Assembly: GCF_015645385.1 (NCBI RefSeq)
Contig: NZ_JADOET010000001.1
Coordinates: 372,001 to 436,000 of the forward strand
DNA from: Winogradskyella marina
GTDB taxonomy: Bacteria; Bacteroidota; Bacteroidia; Flavobacteriales; Flavobacteriaceae
Direction of reading: 5' to 3'
DNA length: 64,000 nt
Positions within the stretch are counted from its first letter, which is position 1. Every line of letters begins with the position of its first letter. A program made the position numbers and the translations under genes. The notes beneath the pieces are model-generated. The model worked only from the letters and a program-made list of their open reading frames with translations, was not told where the DNA came from and searched no databases. Positions 37,100 to 56,113 of the stretch are shown here, one piece after another.

Positions 37100-37174
37100 A
37101 TGAAAAAACAAGTCATTAATATCATTTCAATTATTAGCATCGTGATTATTTCTCGAAGCCAAGGAATGCTATGA
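37100..37174 (+). CDS. Ile/Val-rich leader peptide of the ilv operon (24 aa)
   Basis: Short ORF, ATG 37100 to TGA 37172-37174. The peptide begins MKKQVINIISIISIVIIS and ends RSQGML: 8 Ile and 2 Val among 24 residues, with Ile at 6, 8, 9, 11, 12, 14, 16 and 17. It is followed 23 nt after the stop by an intrinsic terminator and precedes ilvD by 227 bp. This is the arrangement of a classical transcription-attenuation leader in which ribosome stalling at Ile codons reports isoleucine supply. Leu24 and the two Val may make it respond to the other branched-chain amino acids. Confidence 0.85.
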   Translation: MKKQVINIISIISIVIISRSQGML

Positions 37175-37207
37175 CAAATTAAACATAATTAATTTTTAAG
37201 CCTTCCT
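37162..37207 (+). promoter_or_regulatory. Predicted antiterminator of the ilv attenuator
   Basis: AGGAATGCT at 37162-37170 (the last leader codons) can pair with AGCCTTCCT at 37199-37207, the 5' arm of the terminator, giving 8 of 9 base pairs. A ribosome stalled on the Ile run leaves 37162-37170 free and the antiterminator forms; a ribosome at the stop codon covers it and the terminator forms. Positions fit the standard attenuation logic. Confidence 0.7.
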
Positions 37208-37226
37208 ATTTCGGAAGGCTTTTTTT
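37198..37226 (+). terminator. Attenuator terminator before ilvD
   Basis: Perfect 9-bp stem AAGCCTTCC (37198-37206), loop TATTTC, GGAAGGCTT (37213-37221), followed by an unbroken T run to 37226. It lies 175 bp before the ilvD start, so it acts on the leader transcript. Confidence 0.9.
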
Positions 37227-46390: not shown

Positions 46391-46521
46391 AAAAGCAGAG
46401 TATAAAGCCGTTCAAATTGAAATATTTACAGTTTTAAACAGAAGAATTATGAATTTCATAAATCTTTCAAAAAAGAAGGTATAACAAGTTAATTTCTAAA
46501 TAAAAATTATAAATTTACACT

Positions 46522-46587
46522 ATGTTAATTCAAAGAAATAAAATTGAAAGACCCACACGCTTGTTATTAAACAGGCGACGTCGCTAA
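46522..46587 (+). CDS. Arginine-rich leader peptide of the arg operon (21 aa)
   Basis: ATG 46522 to TAA 46585-46587. The peptide starts MLIQRNKIERPTRLLLN and ends in four Arg. Seven of 21 residues are Arg, with codons AGA, AGA, CGC, AGG, CGA, CGT and CGC; the last four are consecutive and directly before the stop. It precedes the nine-gene arginine operon by 230 bp. This is exactly what an arginine-sensing ribosome-stalling leader should look like; no alternative role for such a peptide is evident. Confidence 0.8.
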   Translation: MLIQRNKIERPTRLLLNRRRR

Positions 46588-46739
46588 TGGACCTACTTAA
46601 AACCATTTAGTTAATCAATTTTAATTTTTTCACATTGAACAATTTATCCAATTTTTTTCTAGTTTCATTTTTAGTAATTTCATTTACTAACAGACATATG
46701 TTACGCCGTGTTTCTAATCGTCGCCCTTAAGGGTGCGAT
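46574..46739 (+). promoter_or_regulatory. Predicted alternative RNA pairing in the arg leader
   Basis: GGCGACG (46574-46580), inside the Arg-codon run, is fully complementary to CGTCGCC (46719-46725). The latter is also the 5' part of a local hairpin at 46717-46739 (ATCG...GCCC, loop TTAA, GGG...CGAT). Stalled ribosomes would mask 46574-46580 and so favour the local hairpin. The hairpin lacks a good U run, so which form blocks expression is unclear. Confidence 0.5.
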
Positions 46740-46817
46740 CTATTTTAGGAACTTTGGTGTGTCCAGTTCTTCTTTCCAAACATTGAAAAAATTTTATAAT
46801 TAAATAAATCAATCACA

Positions 46818-47441
46818 ATGAAAATTGTCATTGCAGATAAATCACATAGTATATACGCAGAACTCATTTGCGAAACCATAGCTGAAGCCGCAAAAGTTAG
46901 AGGAACTGGTATTGCAAAACGGCAGCCAGAATACATCATTTCTAAAATGGAAAACGGTAATGCTGTGATTGCATTAGAAGACGATAAATTTGCTGGCTTC
47001 TGCTATATTGAAGCTTGGAGTCATGGGAAGTTTGTCGCCAATTCCGGATTAATTGTACATCCAGATTTCAGAAATCTAGGGCTTGCCAAAAGAATTAAAA
47101 AAGTAATTTTTGAACATTCTAGAACTAAGTTTCCAGATTCTAAAGTTTTTAGTATCACTACAGGTTTAGCCGTAATGAAAATGAATAGCGAATTAGGCTA
47201 TAAACCCGTAACATTTTCAGAACTAACAGATGATCAGTCTTTCTGGAAAGGTTGCCAAACATGCAAAAATTTTGATGTTTTAACCAGAACAGAACAGAAA
47301 ATGTGTTTATGCACAGGCATGCTTTACGATCCGGCTAAAGCCAAGCCAACAAAATCTAAAAAGCATGACTATGATAATAAAACATGGACAAGATTGAAAC
47401 TTATTAAACAGAACATGTTTCTTAAAAAAGATAAAAAATGA
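46818..47441 (+). CDS. GNAT N-acyltransferase, predicted first enzyme of arginine synthesis
   Basis: 207 aa. GNAT core (about 1-145) with NSGLIVHPDFRNLGLAKRIKK, the acyl-CoA loop (Q/R-x-x-G/A type, here RNLGLA). The C-terminal part has a four-Cys pattern GCQTCKNFDVLTRTEQKMCLCTGML (about 154-176) that could bind metal. No argA or argJ is otherwise present, so it likely acylates glutamate, acetyl or succinyl. It overlaps argG by 4 bp (ATGA), confirming coupling with the arginine genes. Confidence 0.75.
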   Translation: MKIVIADKSHSIYAELICETIAEAAKVRGTGIAKRQPEYIISKMENGNAVIALEDDKFAGFCYIEAWSHGKFVANSGLIVHPDFRNLGLAKRIKKVIFEHSRTKFPDSKVFSITTGLAVMKMNSELGYKPVTFSELTDDQSFWKGCQTCKNFDVLTRTEQKMCLCTGMLYDPAKAKPTKSKKHDYDNKTWTRLKLIKQNMFLKKDKK

Positions 47442-48619
47442 GTAAAAAATTAGTGATAGCTTATAGCGGAGGTTTAGACACGTCGTACTGTGCCGTAAGT
47501 TTAAGTAAAGCAGGATATGACATCCATGCTGTCAGTGTGAACACAGGAGGTTTTACAACTGAAGAAATTAAAACCATTGAAAGTAATGCCTACAAAATGG
47601 GCGTTTCCACATATAAAAATATTGATGCTATTGCGTCGTATTACGATAAAGTGATAAAGTATTTAATCTTTGGAAATGTGCTTAAAAACAATACATATCC
47701 TTTATCCGTAAGTGCAGAACGTATCATTCAAGCTATTGAAATCATTGAATATGCAAAAAGTATCGACGCAAAATATATTGCACATGGAAGCACAGGAGCA
47801 GGAAATGACCAAGTGCGTTTCGATATGATTTTTCAAACTTTAGCACCAGAAATTGAAATCATTACACCGATTAGAGACGGCAAATTAACAAGACAACAAG
47901 AAATTGATTACCTCGTTGAAAACGGTATTGACATGTCTTGGAACAAAGCTAAATATTCGATTAACAAAGGACTTTGGGGAACAAGTGTTGGTGGAGAAGA
48001 AACCTTAACTTCAGAAAAACCATTACCAGATTCGGCTTACCCTTCGCAATTAAAACATTCTGATCCTGAAAAAGTAGTTCTCACATTTTCGCAAGGTGAG
48101 TTAGTGGCTATAAACGGTATAAAAAATAATCCAGAAGTTAATATTGAAGTCTTAAATAATTTAGCTTCAACTTATGCCATTGGCAGAGATATTCATGTTG
48201 GTGACACCATTGTTGGCATCAAAGGACGTGTTGGTTTTGAAGCTGCAGCAGCTTTAATAATCATCAAAGCACATCATCTTTTAGAAAAACATACCTTAAC
48301 CAAATGGCAGTTACAGCATAAAGATTATTTATCTAGTTTCTATGGCATGCATTTGCATGAAGGGCAATATTTAGATCCTGTAATGCGAGATATGGAAGCC
48401 TTTTTACAAAGTAGTCAAGACAAGGTTTCAGGTGATGTTTTTGTGACCTTAAAACCGTATCATTTTTCTCTAGATGGTATTTCATCGAAGCACGATTTAA
48501 TGAGTGCTAAATTCGGAAGTTACGGAGAAGAAAATAAAGGCTGGACAGCTGATGAAGCTAAAGGATTCATCAAAATTTTTGGTAATCAGAATAAGATCTA
48601 TCAACAAGTAAATAGTTAG
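47438..48619 (+). CDS. argG: Argininosuccinate synthase
   Basis: 393 aa. Ligates citrulline and aspartate with ATP. PP-loop motif AYSGGLDTSYCAV at 9-21 binds ATP; AHGSTGAGNDQVRFD and ITPIRDG are the other substrate-binding segments. The start overlaps the GNAT stop by 4 bp. The start codon is well placed after the A-rich GNAT end. Confidence 0.95.
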   Translation: MSKKLVIAYSGGLDTSYCAVSLSKAGYDIHAVSVNTGGFTTEEIKTIESNAYKMGVSTYKNIDAIASYYDKVIKYLIFGNVLKNNTYPLSVSAERIIQAIEIIEYAKSIDAKYIAHGSTGAGNDQVRFDMIFQTLAPEIEIITPIRDGKLTRQQEIDYLVENGIDMSWNKAKYSINKGLWGTSVGGEETLTSEKPLPDSAYPSQLKHSDPEKVVLTFSQGELVAINGIKNNPEVNIEVLNNLASTYAIGRDIHVGDTIVGIKGRVGFEAAAALIIIKAHHLLEKHTLTKWQLQHKDYLSSFYGMHLHEGQYLDPVMRDMEAFLQSSQDKVSGDVFVTLKPYHFSLDGISSKHDLMSAKFGSYGEENKGWTADEAKGFIKIFGNQNKIYQQVNS

Positions 48620-48635
48620 GTTTGAATTAAAAAGA

Positions 48636-48653
48636 TTCCCATTGTCGTGGGAA
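48636..48653 (+). repeat. Start-proximal hairpin repeat before argC
   Basis: TTCCCA (48636-48641), loop TTGTCG, TGGGAA (48648-48653), then 6 nt to the argC ATG at 48660. Confidence 0.75.
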
Positions 48654-48659
48654 ATAGAT

Positions 48660-49643
48660 ATGAAAAAATTAAAAGTAGGAATCATTGGAGGTGCAGGCTA
48701 CACAGCAGGCGAATTAATACGATTATTGATTCATCACTCTAAAGTTGAAATCGATTTTATATTCAGCACATCAAACGCTGGAAACAAAGTCAGCAAGGTT
48801 CATCAAGATTTATTAGGCTCAACAGACTTAAAGTTTTCAAGTGAAATTAACTCAGAAGTAGATGTACTTTTCTTGTGCTTAGGCCATGGAAATTCAAAAG
48901 CTTTTTTAGAAAACAACACCTTTTCAGACCAAACCAAAATTATTGATCTGAGTAATGATTTCAGGTTAACAGATGATTCTAATTTTGAAGGTAAATCATT
49001 CATTTACGGCTTACCAGAATTAAATAAATCTGAAATCAAAACAGCGAACTACATCGCTAATCCTGGTTGTTTTGCAACTACAATTCAACTCGCATTATTA
49101 CCACTAGCAAAAGCAAATTTATTAAACGACGATATTCATATCAATGCGGTTACTGGAGCAACTGGAGCTGGTACCTCTTTATCTGCAACCACACATTTTA
49201 CGTGGCGAGATAATAACTTTTCACATTATAAAGCGTTTACACATCAGCATTTAGGAGAAATCAACCAAACGGTTAATCAGTTGCAAGAAAAATTTAATTC
49301 TGAAATCAATTTTATGCCAAATCGAGGCAATTTTTCAAGAGGAATTTTTGCAACACTTTACACCAAGTTTGAAGCCACGCTTGAAGACGCTAAAATAGTG
49401 TATTCCAATTTTTATAAAGATGCAGCTTTTACTTTTATTTCAGATGAAGACATTCACTTAAAACAAGTCGTAAACACTAATAAGTGCATCTTACATTTAC
49501 ATAAACACCAGAACAAATTATTAATAACAAGTATAACCGACAATTTACTAAAAGGCGCATCAGGTCAAGCGATTCAAAACATGAATTTAATGTTTGGATT
49601 TGATGAAACTGAAGGATTGCAATTAAAGGCTAATTATTTTTAA
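48660..49643 (+). CDS. argC: N-acyl-gamma-glutamyl-phosphate reductase
   Basis: 327 aa from ATG 48660 (MKKLKVGIIGGAGYTAGELIRLL). The longer frame begins at a TTG inside the hairpin and is rejected. NADP-binding GGAGYTAGEL at 10-19, catalytic Cys in NPGCFATTIQLAL, and histidine-containing HQHLGEINQ near the active site. Reduces acylglutamyl phosphate to the semialdehyde. Hairpin repeat directly upstream. Confidence 0.94.
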   Translation: MKKLKVGIIGGAGYTAGELIRLLIHHSKVEIDFIFSTSNAGNKVSKVHQDLLGSTDLKFSSEINSEVDVLFLCLGHGNSKAFLENNTFSDQTKIIDLSNDFRLTDDSNFEGKSFIYGLPELNKSEIKTANYIANPGCFATTIQLALLPLAKANLLNDDIHINAVTGATGAGTSLSATTHFTWRDNNFSHYKAFTHQHLGEINQTVNQLQEKFNSEINFMPNRGNFSRGIFATLYTKFEATLEDAKIVYSNFYKDAAFTFISDEDIHLKQVVNTNKCILHLHKHQNKLLITSITDNLLKGASGQAIQNMNLMFGFDETEGLQLKANYF

Positions 49644-49650
49644 ATAGCTG

Positions 49651-49771
49651 TCATTCCTGCACAGGCAGAAATCCACTCGAGCAGGTCTGAAACAAATCAC
49701 AATACCTACAAGGTTATTAGAAACCTCGCAGGATAATCAATTGTTACCTTGAGCGCAGTCGAAAGGTCTTA
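49651..49771. repeat. Mosaic of three dispersed repeats between argC and proC
   Basis: The 178-bp spacer consists of a full-length version of the hairpin family (TGTCATTCCTGC... at 49651), a degenerate ACCTGWYAGGT palindrome (CCTACAAGGTT/AAACCTCGCAGG, 49705-49732) and TTGAGCGCAGTCGAAAGGTC (49750-49769). No coding signal; reads as stacked insertions. Confidence 0.55.
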
Positions 49772-49799
49772 ATAACAAGAAAGTTTAATTAATAAGATA

Positions 49800-49813
49800 A
49801 CCGCTTTCGCGGT
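49800..49813 (+). repeat. Start-proximal hairpin repeat before proC
   Basis: ACCGC (49800-49804), loop TTTC, GCGGT (49809-49813), 8 nt before the proC ATG. Confidence 0.7.
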
Positions 49814-49821
49814 CACTAAAG

Positions 49822-50622
49822 ATGAAAATAGCAATCATAGGAACAGGAAACTTAGGGAAGTCCATAGCCAAAGGACTCATCACTAACAATGCCATAACCA
49901 CGCTCTATTTAACCAAACGAAACCTGAATGATATTCAAGATTTAGAAGGTTATAAAAACGTCGTTTTAACAACAGACAATATTGAAGCCGTTAAGCAATC
50001 CGATATTTTAATATTTGCTATTCAGCCGACACATTTTGAACAAATCTTAAATAATATTAAGCCGTATTTAACGGAAAAGCATGTTTTAATTTCAACTATA
50101 ACAGGATTTTCAATTTCAAGAATTGAATCTATTGTTGGCATTGAGCAATTCATTATAAGAGCCATGCCAAACACAGCGATTGCTGTTGGTAAATCCATGA
50201 CTTGTATGTGTAGTAATGAAAAAGGAACAAAACGTATTAAAATTGCTGAAGCGATTTTTAATAGATTAGGCCATACGCTAGCCATTCCGGAATCGCAAAT
50301 GCAAGCCGCAACAGTAGTTTGTGCCAGTGGAGTCGCCTTTTGGATGCGTCTGATTAGAGCTACCACACAAGCTGCTATTCAATTAGGATTTGATGCTAAA
50401 GAAGCCCAAGAATTAGCCATGTATACAAGTGAGGGCGCAGCGAGTTTATTGATTACCAACGGCAATCATCCTGAAGAAGAAATTGATCGTGTGACCACAC
50501 CAAAAGGTTGCACCATTGAAGGCTTAAACGAAATGGAACACAAAGGGTTAAGTTCATCTTTAATTCAAGGAATGGTAGCATCGTTTAATAAAATTAGTAA
50601 CATTAAGAAAGAGCAGATATGA
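49822..50622 (+). CDS. proC: Pyrroline-5-carboxylate reductase
   Basis: 266 aa NAD(P)H enzyme. N-terminal Rossmann motif KIAIIGTGNLGKSIAKGL, central FAIQPTHF and AMPNTAIAVG, C-terminal helices with the family signature VTTPKGCTIEGLNEME (about 225-240). Makes proline from P5C. Its 3' end overlaps the argD start by 4 bp, so it is locked into the arginine operon rather than standing alone. P5C and glutamate/ornithine semialdehyde chemistry links the two pathways. Confidence 0.94.
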   Translation: MKIAIIGTGNLGKSIAKGLITNNAITTLYLTKRNLNDIQDLEGYKNVVLTTDNIEAVKQSDILIFAIQPTHFEQILNNIKPYLTEKHVLISTITGFSISRIESIVGIEQFIIRAMPNTAIAVGKSMTCMCSNEKGTKRIKIAEAIFNRLGHTLAIPESQMQAATVVCASGVAFWMRLIRATTQAAIQLGFDAKEAQELAMYTSEGAASLLITNGNHPEEEIDRVTTPKGCTIEGLNEMEHKGLSSSLIQGMVASFNKISNIKKEQI

Positions 50623-51752
50623 GTTTATTCAATGTTTACCCACTTTTCGACATTACACCTGTAAGCGCAAAAGATCTATACGTTTACGATGAAAATAATG
50701 TTGAATATTTAGATTTATATGGTGGACATGCTGTGATTTCCATAGGCCATTCGCACCCAAAATATGTATCAGCAATTTCTAATCAAGTTGAAAAACTTGG
50801 TTTTTACAGTAATGCGATTCAAAATCCGTTACAAGTAAAATTAGCTGATAAATTGGAAGCATTGTCTGGCTGTAAAGATTATCAGTTGTTTTTATGTAAT
50901 TCTGGCGCAGAAGCCAATGAAAACGCTTTAAAATTAGCGTCATTTCATAATGGGAAAAAGAAAGTATTAGCTTTTAAAAACTCGTTTCATGGCAGAACTT
51001 CGGCTACAGTTGCCGCTACTGACAATCCAAAAATTGTTGCACCAATAAACGCACAACAAGAAGTAGATTTCTTAGAATTAGGCGATTTAGATGCTGTTGA
51101 AACCGTATTGAAACAGAACGAAACCTGTGCTGTTATTGTCGAATTTATACAAGGTGTTGGTGGTTTAGATCAAAGCACCACAGAATTCTACCAAGGATTA
51201 GATAAACTTTGCAAACAATATAACACGTCATTAATTGCAGACGAAGTACAATCTGGATTTGGAAGAACTGGTGACTTTTTTGCCTACCAAAAACATAATA
51301 TAACGCCAGATATTATTTCCATGGCAAAAGGTATGGGCAATGGGTTTCCGGTTGGAGGGATTTTAATTCATCCTTCAATTAAAGCCTCTTACGGTTTGTT
51401 AGGTACGACGTTTGGTGGTAATCATTTGGCTTGTGCAGCGACACTATCAGTTTTAGACGTTTTGGAAGAGGAAAAATTAATGAAAAATGCTAAAAATATC
51501 TCAGATTATTTTCAAGAGAAAGCGAAGTCCTTACCCAATTTAAAATCTATTAAAGGACGAGGTTTAATGCTAGGATTAGAGTTTAAATTTCCAATTTCAG
51601 AATTACGAAAAAAATTAATTTTCGACCATCATATATTTACAGGAAGTGCAAAGAATCCTAATTTGCTCAGGATTCTTCCGCCTTTAACGATTCAGAAAAA
51701 ACATATTGATTTGTTTTTTGATGCAACCTGCAAGGTTTTAAAAACCTTGTAA
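50619..51752 (+). CDS. argD: Acetyl/succinylornithine aminotransferase
   Basis: 377 aa, fold-type I PLP enzyme. GGHAVISIGHSHPKYV near the start, CNSGAEANENALKLA, SFHGRTSATVA, ADEVQSGFGRTG and the PLP-lysine Lys237 in SMAKGMGNGFPVGG. Converts N-acylglutamate semialdehyde to N-acylornithine. The last residues (Thr-Cys-Lys-Val-Leu-Lys-Thr-Leu) and the stop are encoded by an intergenic-type palindrome, so the C-terminus was reshaped by a repeat. Confidence 0.94.
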   Translation: MSLFNVYPLFDITPVSAKDLYVYDENNVEYLDLYGGHAVISIGHSHPKYVSAISNQVEKLGFYSNAIQNPLQVKLADKLEALSGCKDYQLFLCNSGAEANENALKLASFHNGKKKVLAFKNSFHGRTSATVAATDNPKIVAPINAQQEVDFLELGDLDAVETVLKQNETCAVIVEFIQGVGGLDQSTTEFYQGLDKLCKQYNTSLIADEVQSGFGRTGDFFAYQKHNITPDIISMAKGMGNGFPVGGILIHPSIKASYGLLGTTFGGNHLACAATLSVLDVLEEEKLMKNAKNISDYFQEKAKSLPNLKSIKGRGLMLGLEFKFPISELRKKLIFDHHIFTGSAKNPNLLRILPPLTIQKKHIDLFFDATCKVLKTL

Positions 51753-51753
51753 G
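51726..51753. repeat. ACCTGWYAGGT palindrome overlapping the argD 3' end
   Basis: CCTGCAAGGTTTT (51728-51740) and AAAACCTTG (51741-51749) with flanks form a palindrome. It contains the final eight sense codons and TAA of argD. Same family as the copy at 52745-52777. Confidence 0.7.
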
Positions 51754-51780
51754 TTTAGAGCTAAGTTTAATTAAAACAGA

Positions 51781-51798
51781 TTCCCACTTTCGTGGGAA
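51781..51798 (+). repeat. Start-proximal hairpin repeat before argF'
   Basis: TTCCCAC (51781-51787), loop TTTC, GTGGGAA (51792-51798), 6 nt before the ATG at 51805. Perfect 7-bp stem. Confidence 0.8.
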
Positions 51799-51804
51799 GT
51801 GAAC

Positions 51805-52740
51805 ATGAAAAATTACACCAAAATAAAAGATATTTCCAACCTTTCAGAAACCATAAAGAATGCCATTTTATTAAAAATGAATCCTTTTGAATTTCAAGAT
51901 TTAGGAAAACATAAAACCTTAGTCATGCTGTTTTTCAATTCGAGTTTAAGAACACGATTGAGTACTGAAAAAGCGGCAAAAAACCTAGGCATGGATGTCA
52001 TGATTTTAAATGTCAATGATGCATGGAATTTAGAATTTGAAGATGGCACCATAATGAACATGGACAAATCGGAACACATTAAAGATGCCGCGCAAGTAAT
52101 TTCTCAATATGCCGATGTGATTGCGGTTAGAGCATTTCCAACATTGCAAGATAAAGCCAAAGACGAATCGGAATATGTGCTCAATAACTTTAAAAAATAC
52201 GCCACAGTTCCAATTGTTAATATGGAATCTGCCACAGCTCATCCTTTACAAGCCTTAGCCGATGCCATTACTGTAACTGAACTCACGGAAAAGGCAAAAC
52301 CAAAAGTCGTGTTGTCTTGGGCACCACACCCTAAAGCCTTACCACAAGCGGTTCCAAATTCGTTTGTAGAAATGATGCAGGATTTAGAGGTAGATTTAAC
52401 CATTACACATCCTGAAGGTTATGAATTAAGTGAAGAAATCACGAAAAATACAGTTGTCAATCACAATCAAGAAGAAGCCTTAAAAGATGCTGATTTTGTT
52501 TATGTAAAAAATTGGAGCAGTTACAGGGATTATGGAAAAGTATTGAGTCAAGATGAGAATTGGATGATGACAAAAGCCAAATTAGGCCATGCAAAATTTA
52601 TGCATTGTTTACCAGTAAGACGAAATGTGATTGTTGAAGATGCCGTTTTGGATAGTGAGCAATCTGTGGTTATTCATCAAGCTAATAATAGAACTTATGC
52701 TGCGCAAGTGGTATTGAAAGAGATTTTGGAAACATTATAA
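51805..52740 (+). CDS. argF': N-succinyl/acetylornithine carbamoyltransferase
   Basis: 311 aa from ATG 51805; a GTG at 51799 lying at the edge of the hairpin is less likely. Carbamoyl-phosphate motif SLRTR (about 47-51), VRAFP near 121, and HCLPVRRN (CLP motif) near 273. It resembles the N-acylornithine transcarbamylases of Bacteroidetes and Xanthomonas rather than classic OTC. At the specificity position (Glu in the acetyl enzymes, Pro in the Bacteroides succinyl enzyme, as I remember it) this one appears to have Ser89 in KSEHI, which would favour the succinyl substrate. Confidence 0.9.
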   Translation: MKNYTKIKDISNLSETIKNAILLKMNPFEFQDLGKHKTLVMLFFNSSLRTRLSTEKAAKNLGMDVMILNVNDAWNLEFEDGTIMNMDKSEHIKDAAQVISQYADVIAVRAFPTLQDKAKDESEYVLNNFKKYATVPIVNMESATAHPLQALADAITVTELTEKAKPKVVLSWAPHPKALPQAVPNSFVEMMQDLEVDLTITHPEGYELSEEITKNTVVNHNQEEALKDADFVYVKNWSSYRDYGKVLSQDENWMMTKAKLGHAKFMHCLPVRRNVIVEDAVLDSEQSVVIHQANNRTYAAQVVLKEILETL

Positions 52741-52744
52741 TTTC

Positions 52745-52777
52745 AGACCTGTCAGGTTTTAAAAACCTGACAGGTCT
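52745..52777. repeat. 33-bp perfect palindrome, ACCTGWYAGGT family
   Basis: AGACCTGTCAGGTTTT (52745-52760), one central base, AAAACCTGACAGGTCT (52762-52777): 16-bp perfect arms. It starts 5 bp after the argF' stop. Confidence 0.85.
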
Positions 52778-52791
52778 ATAACAAAAAGATA

Positions 52792-52805
52792 CCCGCTTTC
52801 GCGGG
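52792..52805 (+). repeat. Start-proximal hairpin repeat before argB
   Basis: CCCGC (52792-52796), loop TTTC, GCGGG (52801-52805), 6 nt before the argB ATG. Confidence 0.75.
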
Positions 52806-52811
52806 CACTAG

Positions 52812-53588
52812 ATGAAAACACTAAAAGTCATAAAAATAGGTGGCAACATCATAGATAATGAAGCGGCACTATCGTCATTCATCAAAGATTTCTCTACCAT
52901 AGAAGGTCCAAAAGTCTTGGTTCATGGCGGAGGAAAATTAGCCACCAAATTAGCCAACCAAATGAACGTTCCTGTAAAAATGACGGAAGGCAGACGTATC
53001 ACTGATGCAGCAACGCTAGACATTATCACTATGGTCTATGCTGGAAAAATCAACAAAAATATAGTTGCACAACTTGAAGCTCGTCAATGCAATGCCATTG
53101 GATTTTCTGGTGCTGATGGCAATACCATTATTTCAGAAAAACGACCAATAAAAACTATCGATTACGGATTTGTTGGTGATGTGAAAAAAGTCAATACAGC
53201 AACATTAGAAGTTTTACTTAATAATAATATTACACCAGTTTTCTGTGCTATAACTCACGATGAAAACGGACAATTACTAAACACCAACGCAGATACGATT
53301 GCTTCAGAATTAGCGATTGGGTTAACTTCAATTTTCAAGACAGAATTATATTATTGTTTCGAAAAAAATGGTGTTCTTGAAAATGTTGAAAACGATGATT
53401 CTGTAATAGAAAACATCAACACAGAAAGTTATAAAACACTAAAAGAAAACAATATCATATTCGAAGGTATGTTACCTAAATTAGACAACTGCTTTCACGC
53501 TATAAATAAAAACGTTCAAAAAGTTTGCATTGGAAAATCAAAGATGCTTTTTGATGCCAATAACAAACACACAACCATTACAAAATGA
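52812..53588 (+). CDS. argB: N-acetylglutamate (or N-succinylglutamate) kinase
   Basis: 258 aa amino-acid kinase. VIKIGGNIIDNEAAL with catalytic Lys8, VHGGGKLATKLANQM (glycine loop, about 38-52), and NTNADTIASELA (near 156), which carries the catalytic Asp and Asn region. Slightly short but complete. It lacks the N-terminal helix used for arginine inhibition in hexameric kinases, suggesting it is not itself arginine-feedback regulated, which fits control by the leader. Overlaps argE by 4 bp. Confidence 0.94.
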   Translation: MKTLKVIKIGGNIIDNEAALSSFIKDFSTIEGPKVLVHGGGKLATKLANQMNVPVKMTEGRRITDAATLDIITMVYAGKINKNIVAQLEARQCNAIGFSGADGNTIISEKRPIKTIDYGFVGDVKKVNTATLEVLLNNNITPVFCAITHDENGQLLNTNADTIASELAIGLTSIFKTELYYCFEKNGVLENVENDDSVIENINTESYKTLKENNIIFEGMLPKLDNCFHAINKNVQKVCIGKSKMLFDANNKHTTITK

Positions 53589-54646
53589 TTGAAAAACTAA
53601 CCACAGAAGCTATTGCTTTATTAAAGCAATTAATAGAAACACAGTCTTTTTCTTCAGAAGAAGACAACACAGCTTTGCTTATTGAAAATTGGTTTACAAC
53701 ACACAATGTACCATTTAAAAGGAATAATCATAACATTTGGTCAACAAACAAACATTTTGATGAGAGCAAACCAACCTTGTTATTAAACTCACATCACGAC
53801 ACTGTAAAACCTAATAATGGTTATACCAAAGACCCATTTAAAGCCATTGTTGAAGACGGTAAATTATACGGTTTAGGAAGCAATGATGCTGGTGGTTGTT
53901 TAGTCTCTCTAATTGCGACGTTCACTTATTTTTACGATAAAGAAGACCTGAATTACAATTTGGTCATCGTCGCATCTGCAGAAGAAGAAAGCAGTGGACC
54001 AAATGGACTGAATAGTATGTTGGCCATCATTCCAAAAATCGATGTTGCCATTGTTGGTGAACCTACGCTAATGAACTTAGCCATTGCTGAAAAAGGATTG
54101 GTTGTTTTTGATGCCAAAGTTAAAGGAACGGCAAGCCATGCAGCACATCCAAATACTGACAATTCAATATACAACTGTATCGAAGTTTTAAAATGGTTTC
54201 AAGATTATAAGTTTGAAAAAACGTCACCAGTTTTAGGCGATGTAAAAATGACGGTTACTCAAATTAATGCAGGAAAACAACATAATGCTGTACCATCGGA
54301 AGTGGATTTAGTGGTCGATGTTCGTGTGAATGACAACTATTCGAATCAAGAAATTGCTGATATTTTAGCTAAAGAATCACCATGTACGAGTATTATTCCA
54401 AGAAGTTTACGCCTAAATTCATCGTCAATTTCTAGTGACCACGACTTGGTAAAAGCCGGAATCGCACTAGGACGAGAAACGTACGGTTCGCCAACGCTTT
54501 CTGACCAAGCAACATTAACTTGCCAATCCTTAAAACTTGGACCTGGCGATAGTACGCGTTCGCATACAGCTGATGAATTTATTTATTTGGCTGAAATTGA
54601 GGAAGGCGTCGATTTATATATTAAATTGTTAGAGAAGGTATTGTAA
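53585..54646 (+). CDS. argE: M20-family deacylase (acetyl/succinyl-ornithine or -citrulline deacetylase)
   Basis: 353 aa zinc-dependent M20 hydrolase. LLNSHHDTVKP supplies the first metal ligands (His-x-Asp), GSNDAGG the bridging Asp, and AEEESSGPNG the catalytic and metal Glu. GEPT...AEKGLVVFDAKVKGTASHAAHP is the dimer-domain signature. With an N-acylornithine carbamoyltransferase next door, its true substrate is probably N-acylcitrulline. Coupled to argB by an ATGA overlap. Confidence 0.92.
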   Translation: MIEKLTTEAIALLKQLIETQSFSSEEDNTALLIENWFTTHNVPFKRNNHNIWSTNKHFDESKPTLLLNSHHDTVKPNNGYTKDPFKAIVEDGKLYGLGSNDAGGCLVSLIATFTYFYDKEDLNYNLVIVASAEEESSGPNGLNSMLAIIPKIDVAIVGEPTLMNLAIAEKGLVVFDAKVKGTASHAAHPNTDNSIYNCIEVLKWFQDYKFEKTSPVLGDVKMTVTQINAGKQHNAVPSEVDLVVDVRVNDNYSNQEIADILAKESPCTSIIPRSLRLNSSSISSDHDLVKAGIALGRETYGSPTLSDQATLTCQSLKLGPGDSTRSHTADEFIYLAEIEEGVDLYIKLLEKVL

Positions 54647-54678
54647 GAAAAAAAACATAAGAATCAAGAGACAAGATC

Positions 54679-54715
54679 CAAGACGACTACTTTAACGCAA
54701 AAGTAAGCAGTCTTG
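54679..54715. repeat. Imperfect hairpin in the argE-argH spacer
   Basis: CAAGAC (54679-54684) pairs with GTCTTG (54710-54715), and TACTTT (54688-54693) with AAAGTA (54700-54705). Preceded by ATCAAGAGACAAGATCCAAG, another dispersed flavobacterial pattern. Confidence 0.5.
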
Positions 54716-54723
54716 ATTTTGAT

Positions 54724-54754
54724 GACCTAGCAGGTTTTAAAAACCTTGCAGGTC
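54724..54754. repeat. ACCTGWYAGGT palindrome before argH
   Basis: GACCTAGCAGGTTTT (54724-54738) and AAAACCTTGCAGGTC (54740-54754); imperfect arms (3 mismatches). Same family as 52745. Confidence 0.65.
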
Positions 54755-54804
54755 TCAATTCAGACTAAAAAAAAAGAAGTTTAATTAAAAATAGAAAGCA
54801 GAGA

Positions 54805-54822
54805 TTCCTGCTTTCGCAGGAA
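54805..54822 (+). repeat. Start-proximal hairpin repeat before argH
   Basis: TTCCTGC (54805-54811), loop TTTC, GCAGGAA (54816-54822), 4 nt before the argH ATG at 54827. Perfect 7-bp stem. Confidence 0.8.
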
Positions 54823-54826
54823 CGAG

Positions 54827-56113
54827 ATGAAACTCTGGGACAAAGGCTATTCAATAGATAAAAAAATAGAATTATTTACCGTTGGTAACGATCGGGAAAT
54901 TGACATGCATATTGCAAAATATGATGTTGAAGCATCGCGAGCGCATGCCATAATGTTAGAATCCATCGGAATTATAAGTTCGGAAGAATTAGAACAACTG
55001 AAATCAGGCTTAAAAACCTTAGCAGATTCTATTGACGATGGAACATTCGTCATTGAAGAATCATTTGAAGATGTTCATTCTAAAATTGAACACGAACTCA
55101 CAAAAACCTTAGGCGATGTTGGAAAGAAAATCCACACAGCGCGTTCTAGGAATGACCAAGTTTTAGTGGCTCTTCAATTATATTATAAAGAAAATCTTCA
55201 AATCATTAATGACAAAACTAAAACGTTTTTTGATACACTTTTAGAATTATCAGAAACCTATAAAACCAAGCTTTTACCAGGTTATACACATTTGCAAGTC
55301 GCCATGCCATCGTCTTTTGGCTTATGGTTTTCTGCTTATGCAGAGTTATTAATTGATGATGTTTATGTTTTAAATGCGGTTTCTAAAATTACAGATCAAA
55401 ATGTTTTAGGTTCGGCTGCTGGTTACGGAAGTTCATTTCCTATTGATAGAAGTATTACGACTGAAGAATTAGGGTTTTCGACTTTAAAATACAATGTCGT
55501 TGCTGCGCAATTAAGTAGAGGAAAAAGTGAACGCGCTATCGCCAATGCTTTAGGTGGATTATGCAACACCATGGCACGATTCGCTATGGATATCTGTTTG
55601 TATATGAGTCAGAATTTTGGATTTATTTCGTTTCCAGATGAATTGACCACAGGAAGTAGCATTATGCCACACAAAAAGAATCCTGATGTGTTTGAATTGA
55701 TTCGAGGAAAGTGCAATAAAATTCAAGCTTTACATTCTGAAATGTTATTAATCACCAATAATTTACCAAGTGGTTATCATAGGGATTTTCAACTGTTGAA
55801 AGAGAATATCATCAATGCCTTTGAAGATATAAAAGACATTTTAGACATCTTTAATTATTCTATTCAGCAAATCATCGTTAAAGATATTGACCTCAACGAC
55901 GAGAAATACCAATACTTATTTACGGTCGATAGTATTAATAATTTGGTCGTCGATGGTATGAGTTTTAGAGAAGCTTATCAGAAAATTGGAAGTCAAGTTC
56001 AAAGCGGAACATACCAACCCGATTTAGGAAAAGAACATTCTCATATTGGTAGTATTCATAATTTATGTTTGGATAAAATCAGAGAGAAGTTTCCTAAGAA
56101 ATCCAAATTTTGA
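54827..56113 (+). CDS. argH: Argininosuccinate lyase
   Basis: 428 aa fumarase/aspartase-superfamily enzyme splitting argininosuccinate to arginine and fumarate. Conserved regions: DVHSKIEHELTK (about 84-95), HTARSRNDQVLVALQLY, LPGYTHLQVAMPSSFG, and the family signature GSSIMPHKKNPD with the catalytic Ser loop. Slightly shorter than the E. coli enzyme. Last gene of the operon; a terminator follows 55 bp later. Confidence 0.95.
   Translation: MKLWDKGYSIDKKIELFTVGNDREIDMHIAKYDVEASRAHAIMLESIGIISSEELEQLKSGLKTLADSIDDGTFVIEESFEDVHSKIEHELTKTLGDVGKKIHTARSRNDQVLVALQLYYKENLQIINDKTKTFFDTLLELSETYKTKLLPGYTHLQVAMPSSFGLWFSAYAELLIDDVYVLNAVSKITDQNVLGSAAGYGSSFPIDRSITTEELGFSTLKYNVVAAQLSRGKSERAIANALGGLCNTMARFAMDICLYMSQNFGFISFPDELTTGSSIMPHKKNPDVFELIRGKCNKIQALHSEMLLITNNLPSGYHRDFQLLKENIINAFEDIKDILDIFNYSIQQIIVKDIDLNDEKYQYLFTVDSINNLVVDGMSFREAYQKIGSQVQSGTYQPDLGKEHSHIGSIHNLCLDKIREKFPKKSKF

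Follow-up and report, generated by a model that had tools for sequence, protein, structure and literature searches.

Arginine leaders and described relatives

In the classical trp, his and ilv attenuators a short open reading frame (ORF) carrying a run of codons for the end product stands before the biosynthetic operon, and in ermA two tandem leader peptides, ErmAL1 and ErmAL2, undergo drug-dependent arrest with a translational end point. We describe here an arginine leader in a stretch of Winogradskyella marina DNA (64,000 nt, contig NZ_JADOET010000001.1, positions 372,001 to 436,000; this whole stretch is called the window, its own positions are used below, and all features lie on its plus strand). 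The leader, 427 nt long (46391-46817), precedes argNAT, the first gene of an arginine operon, and contains two Arg-rich ORFs (ORF1 and ORF2), a helix between them (P1) and the hairpins H0, Ha, H2 and H3. We interpret it as a cis-acting, ribosome-gated arginine attenuator with two leader peptides in series and mostly without a classical intrinsic terminator, a reading drawn from sequence comparison to which we assign a probability of about 0.6.

The likeness to the classical attenuators lies in the codon run ahead of the biosynthetic operon and in the sensing of charged transfer RNA (tRNA), which for this leader we infer; the differences are that here there is mostly no intrinsic terminator and no supported antiterminator, that two leader ORFs follow one another, and that a hairpin with a conserved loop stands behind them. 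As in ermA, pairing may let the first leader ORF control access to the second (P1 here), whereas the codons here are for an amino acid, and among the supported pairings none was found with the argNAT start that would sequester it in leader RNA.

Closer in the signal sensed is the Salmonella orf34-speF leader (PMC6386406), in which consecutive leader Arg codons sense arginine and both Rho and RNA folding are involved; it differs in controlling ornithine decarboxylase rather than arginine synthesis, and in having a single leader ORF. In Staphylococcus aureus rbfL-rbf (PMC13009471), a lack of arginine is likewise sensed through rare Arg codons of a short leader ORF, but the peptide has 8 residues and the stalled ribosome represses by blocking the next ribosome-binding site, while the distances here are longer and induction is expected. 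The actinobacterial LEU element and cys leaders (PMC1262725) combine a codon-run leader peptide with a conserved RNA element or with no obvious terminator, although we found no counterpart here of the LEU element pairing. Within the family, transcript maps of Flavobacterium psychrophilum offer clues for leader-peptide attenuation before amino-acid operons (PMC9723704); no arginine leader is named in the portion of its main text consulted, its supplement lying outside our scope, and none was noticed in the available part of PMC8632094. Our literature search found no such element described before arginine genes, with most subscription journals and all supplements outside its scope, so that absence from print is not shown.

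We therefore file the system as leader-peptide control of a new variety, one that mostly fails the classical terminator test and for which no antiterminator was found. If our reading is correct, it would explain how arginine synthesis is controlled without ArgR across much of a large family of bacteria, and a leader-peptide element would here have taken the place of a repressor. The system would also have several oddities: a leaderless leader ORF, serial leader ORFs linked through a co-varying helix, and attenuation that mostly lacks a classical terminator but has a strongly conserved hairpin loop. Gene control in this phylum has been little studied, and hairpin H3 would offer concrete bait for an attenuation factor.

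Two leader frames and the helices around them

Relatives were collected by searching the argNAT protein in 60 congeners (33 positive) and in 149 family genomes, one per genus (98 positive). The 27 congeners without an argNAT match may have lost arginine synthesis or may use another enzyme. Upstream DNA was examined at 130 loci; the 131st (L131) is a copy of the window site and was dropped. The H3 core was unscored in 12 of the 130 (L044, L051, L052, L056, L075, L116, L117, L118, L123, L127, L129 and L130), and two more (L050 and L057) failed the H2 pattern, which left a 116-locus set. The 62 tandem loci are the 73 with an ORF1-like ORF minus 11, of which L071, L073 and L077 were excluded by our choice or by spacing and the other eight by spacing or for having no H2/H3. 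The single-ORF loci number 49; removal of five that resemble the tandem type (L022, L032, L062, L069 and L102) left 44 for the pairing search, and a stricter H2 match left 33 for the swap test. This swap test compares native pairing energy with that of partners from other species, limited to <0.75 similarity in the first run and <0.8 in later runs. Alignment A1 holds 81 of 118 loci, hand-picked to thin near-duplicates.

ORF1 (46522-46587) encodes the 21-codon peptide MLIQRNKIERPTRLLLNRRRR, with seven Arg residues, and closes with four consecutive Arg codons, AGG CGA CGT CGC (46573-46584), followed by TAA, just as an earlier note on this DNA, made from its letters alone, had described it. That note had proposed looking for a conserved Arg-rich ORF across flavobacteria, and by a fixed rule an upstream ORF with an Arg-rich end like that of ORF1 occurs at 73 of the 130 loci. 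Across relatives pN/pS is 0.66 in the ORF1 frame versus 1.0 and 0.85 in the other two.

Just ahead of ORF1 lies a relaxed -7 promoter box of the flavobacterial TAnnTTTG type, TAAATTTA (46510-46517). At 59 of the 62 tandem loci such a box stops just short of the ORF1 ATG, the gap being 4 nt at 50 loci and 5 nt at nine, whereas in a shuffled control a mean of 15.2 loci had a box at any position of the 25 nt; the strict form of the box is found at 13 of the 62, the window not being among them. According to PMC9723704, the flavobacterial -7 box sits at -12 to -5, so the predicted first base of the transcript is the A of the ORF1 ATG, and ORF1 should therefore be leaderless. On this evidence from sequence it appears to be a leaderless leader ORF.

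ORF2 (46635-46730) has a TTG start and 31 codons, and encodes LNNLSNFFLVSFLVISFTNRHMLRRVSNRRP, ending LRRVSNRRP before its stop. When the frame is read back from the CGT CGC CCN of hairpin H2, it is open for at least 20 codons at 115 of 116 loci, while the other frames are so at 23 and 20; ORF2 is thus more widespread than ORF1. An in-frame start about 50 nt behind ORF1 is present at all 62 tandem loci (31 TTG, 26 GTG and 5 ATG), and inside ORF2 the same triplets are sparse, TTG making up only 16 of 161 Leu codons and GTG only 6 of 119 Val codons. The first Arg codon pair of ORF2, CGC CGT (46704-46709), has Arg at its two positions in 46 and 33 of 59 tandem-type loci. At single-ORF loci an ATG occurs in the open ORF2 frame in 38 of 49; at 16 of these loci a strict -7 box lies no more than 25 nt from such an ATG, in 15 cases at the same 7-nt spacing (shuffled mean 1.3), and the 16 peptides are 25-28 residues long.

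Both leader ORFs depart from ordinary Arg codon usage. Of the 201 Arg codons in 12 genes of the window, 11 are CGC; the corresponding figures are 135 of 221 for the last seven ORF1 codons at 62 loci and, for ORF2 at 116 loci, 255 of 506, loci with an unassigned start contributing up to 25 codons before H2. The share of AGA falls from 78 of 201 in the window genes to 7 of 221 at the ORF1 end and 27 of 506 in ORF2. The enrichment of CGC in both frames fits a sensor of charged tRNA, with the qualification that H2 itself forces some of the ORF2 CGC codons.

Four helices find support in comparison. In P1, the 5' codons of ORF1 (46532-46547, as 46532-46537 plus 46539-46547) pair with a U-rich stretch just 5' of the ORF2 start (46615-46630), which ties ORF1 to the start region of ORF2. 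Native P1 beats swapped partners at 59 of 62 loci, by a mean of 3.1 kcal/mol, and at 58 of 62 in a second run. H0 (46558-46577) is a hairpin within ORF1 whose 3' arm contains the first terminal Arg codons; the native form is better at 50 of 62, with one locus giving an unusable energy. Ha (46671-46690), within ORF2, shows the strongest covariation of the leader by our measure, being better in native form at 56 of 62, and a similar hairpin occurs in 25 of 33 single-ORF loci. H3 (46748-46769) is a covarying stem with a conserved apical part, GGUGNGUCC. Both-sided changes are seen at six of its eight pairs among the 81 aligned loci, and the native stem beats swapped arms at 51 of 62 tandem and 30 of 33 single-ORF loci. 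Its core, GGTGNG[TC]CC, was found in 118 of 130 loci, an exact agreement of core and loop that is partly circular because the loci were chosen with the pattern of that core.

H2 (46717-46739, core 46722-46735) contains the last codons of ORF2, CGT CGC CCT TAA, with the stop codon in its loop, and a U-rich linker (46736-46747; mean T fraction 0.57 over 116 loci) joins it to H3. Two loci (L053 and L057) alter an H2 pair on both sides. Taken jointly, H2 and H3 exceed all 500 shuffles and all slid versions in paired cells and covariation score; their count of double-change pairs was reached by 11 of 500 shuffles and their count of further pair types by 2 of 500. The H3 core follows the H2 codons at a nearly fixed interval of 34-39 nt.

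In the earlier note, ORF1 alone was the sensor, its terminal Arg codons competing for the downstream hairpin, and ORF2, H3, P1, H0 and Ha were overlooked. Its 7-nt complement is real, GGCGACG (46574-46580) matching CGTCGCC (46719-46725) exactly, and one relative (L051) keeps ORF1 without H2 or H3. Across relatives the pairing does no better than chance: a Watson-Crick run of at least 7 is present in 7 of 62 loci, and native beats swapped in only 33 and 27 of 62. Furthermore, ORF1 is missing by the fixed rule at 49 loci that do possess H2 and H3. The covarying helices that the note had hoped for do exist in P1, H0, Ha and H3, the co-varying partner of ORF1 being the stretch before the ORF2 start rather than H2. 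What survives of the proposal is a conserved Arg-rich leader peptide ahead of the arg operon; that ORF1 senses arginine alone we consider scarcely credible, the hairpin in question holding the end of a second Arg-rich ORF.

The end of ORF2 raises another possibility. Nascent-peptide arrest is exemplified by TnaC, which responds to tryptophan, and by the fungal arginine attenuator peptide, and the R-R-P end of ORF2 might similarly halt the ribosome at the stop codon with arginine itself as the signal. The H2 codons read R-R-P in 105 of 116 loci, Pro precedes the stop in most, and the stop follows directly in 100 of 116. In the single-ORF group the last ten codons before H2 also show selection (pN/pS 0.54 versus 1.14 and 1.19, from 42 sequence pairs). 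Against arrest, selection is weaker in the tandem group (0.73 versus 0.85 and 1.14), and in 16 of 116 loci the stop lies further downstream after extra residues while the Arg codons stay put. We regard such arrest as improbable.

The course and end point of the switch

Comparison bears out both ORFs, the ORF2 start site, the helices P1, H0, Ha and H3, the tie to the arg operon and the lack of ArgR. On this basis we propose the following scheme for the two-peptide attenuator, in which the transcript start, the stalling, the direction of the response and the gating by P1 are all conjectured from sequence. Transcription would begin at the ORF1 ATG, with ORF1 translated on a leaderless mRNA. When arginine is ample, ORF1 would be read quickly, leaving its 5' codons free to form P1 with the U-rich stretch that precedes the weak start of ORF2; this second frame would be scarcely used or soon finished, H2 and H3 would form, and transcription would end early. 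When arginyl-tRNA is scarce, ribosomes would stall and queue at the CGC-rich end of ORF1, P1 would stay open and the ORF2 start would be freed; the next ribosome would then stall at the Arg codons of ORF2 and melt H2 beside H3, allowing the operon to be transcribed. In single-ORF relatives, ORF2, H2 and H3 would suffice. Candidates for the last step are Rho, another factor, or a weak terminator at H2.

An intrinsic terminator, with a GC-rich stem and U run, was not detected before the first gene of the operon in the window by the strict score (that of d'Aubenton-Carafa). This score is above 0 for H2 in 9 of 116 loci and for H3 in none of 116, and fails in the window, where controls gave 0.2 and 36.9 for two operon ends and 28.1 for the ilv leader. 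H2 and H3 were thus rejected as intrinsic terminators at most loci. The hairpin at 46717-46739 folds and lacks a continuous U run, as the earlier note said, although a looser scan still rates it terminator-like. The note's suggestion that such a hairpin may go with Rho-dependent termination or translational control fits the terminator scores.

A simple rival would be an overlap attenuator, with H2 and its U-rich linker forming a weak intrinsic terminator whose folding is blocked by a ribosome stalled on ORF2, and with H3 a hairpin for pausing or stability. In its favor, a scan of a stretch of the window turned up one terminator-like site where 0.0 were expected, and that site is H2; the linker is 57% T, and there are the nine passing loci. 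These must be set against the 107 of 116 H2 hairpins that fail the score (median −24), against the missing U run in the window, and against the placement of H3, the most conserved part, beyond the supposed stop at its near-fixed distance. We hold it to be rather unlikely, though the strongest of the rivals.

Control could alternatively be post-transcriptional, in the manner of Salmonella speF, with the position of the ribosome on ORF2 setting either an RNase site in H2/H3 or the translation of argNAT. There is the precedent with consecutive leader Arg codons (PMC6386406), and the distance from H3 to the argNAT start, 47-61 nt in 71 of 77 loci, looks as if it were important. It is 65-104 nt in the other six, however, and reaches about 240 nt in another locus set, in which some start codons are possibly misplaced, and no pairing of a leader segment with the region of the argNAT start shows clear co-variation. 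We judge this alternative unlikely. The near-fixed H2-H3 spacing together with the looser H3-gene spacing would suggest that the leader affects elongation or a bound factor and does not directly cover the start of argNAT; most H3-to-gene distances are narrow too, however, and the point carries little weight.

Returning to the two-peptide attenuator, several observations weigh against it. First, all counts are inflated by kinship, since the loci are related by descent and not independent. Second, H2 itself shows no covariation in the swap test (native better at 26 of 62 tandem and 16 of 33 single-ORF loci), because its arms hardly vary, and its outermost pair is absent in 33 of 81 aligned rows. 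Third, 12 of 130 loci lack H3 in the form searched, although one of them (L118) has the loop and merely missed the pattern. Fourth, outside its last codons ORF2 is under little amino-acid selection (pN/pS 0.84, other frames 0.89 and 0.74). Fifth, L051 has lost H2 and H3 yet kept ORF1 with its Arg run and -7 box, so ORF1 may act alone in places and the two halves may act apart. Sixth, nine loci of one genus, perhaps Flavobacterium (g128; L285-L292 and L299), have argNAT but neither the leader element nor ArgR, and therefore the element is not obligatory for flavobacteria lacking ArgR. Seventh, no candidate partner whose pairing would exclude H2 or H3 came through the swap or shuffle tests, and the sequence thus does not reveal the last switch; the antiterminator search supported only H0, P1, Ha and H3, and the near-invariant H2 arms are poorly suited to co-variation testing. 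Finally, the 50 nt before argNAT have a mean C-G of 5.2, while 102 control stretches average 1.9 and 21% of them attain 5.2, and C exceeds G in ORF2 in 95% of 62 relatives, yet the window ORF2 stands only at the 58th percentile. With so moderate an excess before argNAT and so ordinary an ORF2 in the window, a Rho site is not established.

Four further candidates were set aside. A Rho site in ORF2 was rejected, C over G being common among relatives but unexceptional in the window. An anti-H3 pairing, in which the H3 loop is bound by codons of ORF2 as in the minimum-energy fold of the window leader, beats codon-shuffled versions in only 27 of 62 and 24 of 54 cases with equal means; local folds of the 116 loci contain H3 in 76, the rival anti-H3 pairing in 13, a loop-only pairing in 21 and neither in six. 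A possible pairing of the H3 loop with the 3' end of 16S rRNA is weakened by L075 and L116, in which the apical GG:CC looks like GA:UC. Docking of the H2 loop into H3 fares no better, the H2 loop varying in sequence. In most relatives the off state does not look like a classical intrinsic terminator; H3 looks like a hairpin to be recognized by Rho, by RNA polymerase or by some other factor.

The arg operon, ArgR and the spread of the element

The first operon gene, argNAT (46818-47441), encodes a GNAT acetyltransferase (PF00583, above cut-off) and is followed by argG, argC, proC, argD, an argF-like gene, argB, an argE/dapE-like gene and argH (47438-56113), assigned by NCBIfam. The earlier note had the leader length right; of the nine genes that it had called an arg operon, eight match arg or pro families, the GNAT gene being the first. 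Curated NCBIfam cut-offs are exceeded by argC, proC, argB and argH, while argG, argD and the argF-like and argE/dapE-like genes have strong E-values yet fall under the cut-offs. The whole leader is more stable than shuffled sequences (fold z −3.0). Rfam 15 gave no match in the window, and three further matches, at E 8-9, lay far under their gathering scores.

ArgR (PF01316), which the note named as a usual controller of arg genes in bacteria, was found neither in this genome nor in the 149 family genomes, in a search that was positive in 9 of 14 control genomes. Among 395 phylum genomes ArgR occurs in 139, one of them, weakly, in Flavobacteriaceae. In all five class-level genomes with ArgR in the sample (L304-L308), argR adjoins argNAT-argG, where Flavobacteriaceae have the leader. 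Four phylum-level ArgR loci have an argG relative with no argNAT match within 4 kb.

A covariance model found the element in 22 of the 395 phylum genomes at E 0.001 or better. Sixteen of these are strong (E 2.7e-12 or better), all of them Flavobacteriaceae with one strong site each. Seven sites are weak (E 9.6e-6 to 9.1e-4), six in weak-only genomes and one an extra in a strong genome; we rejected them as copies of the element, seeing no leader anatomy by eye. In the present genome, the H3-like pattern gives the arg site and two one-mismatch matches. A scan of the genome collection with the H2-H3 pattern gave at least 119 stretches, 80 of them retrieved as loci, and these link the element to the arg operon, argNAT lying 47-104 nt downstream in 77. 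Of the remaining three, two (L165 and L173) end before the downstream gene, and in the third (L168, 4269-5041) the element stands before a different GNAT gene (PF00583) followed by argG (85% identity), the first enzyme apparently having been exchanged under the same control. The titles of the 80 loci name what we take to be Flavobacteriaceae genera, or just Flavobacteriaceae, Flavobacteriales or Bacteroidetes. One carrier record, L218, is titled Flavobacterium, although its peptide resembles that of a Croceivirga record and the title, or our guess on genus g128, may be off.

In other families of the order, short multi-Arg ORFs precede argNAT in L293-L298 and L300, a finding that has no chance control. 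Some of these ORFs are followed by hairpins with a loop like U-N-N-G-U, UCCGU in L300 and, as read by eye, UACGU in L297 and L298; the four loci of family f68 (L293-L296) have a different hairpin loop, and family f69, with 0.6-Mb genomes, showed no such leader at its two loci. An H3 pentaloop close to U-N-N-G-U, assigned partly by eye, is found in three families of the order. We add a tentative extension of the attenuator reading, one that could well prove wrong: H2-H3 might be a new kind of RNA element, a ribosome-gated recognition hairpin with RNA polymerase or a dedicated factor as its reader. Along with a leaderless ORF1, it would have replaced the whole role of ArgR upon loss of argR from the head of the operon.

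The window also holds a classical-looking attenuator before ilvD (37100-37226), the source of the ilv control score above. Its leader ORF encodes MKKQVINIISIISIVIISRSQGML, with 11 Ile, Leu or Val residues, and its hairpin (37200-37219) is followed by seven T.
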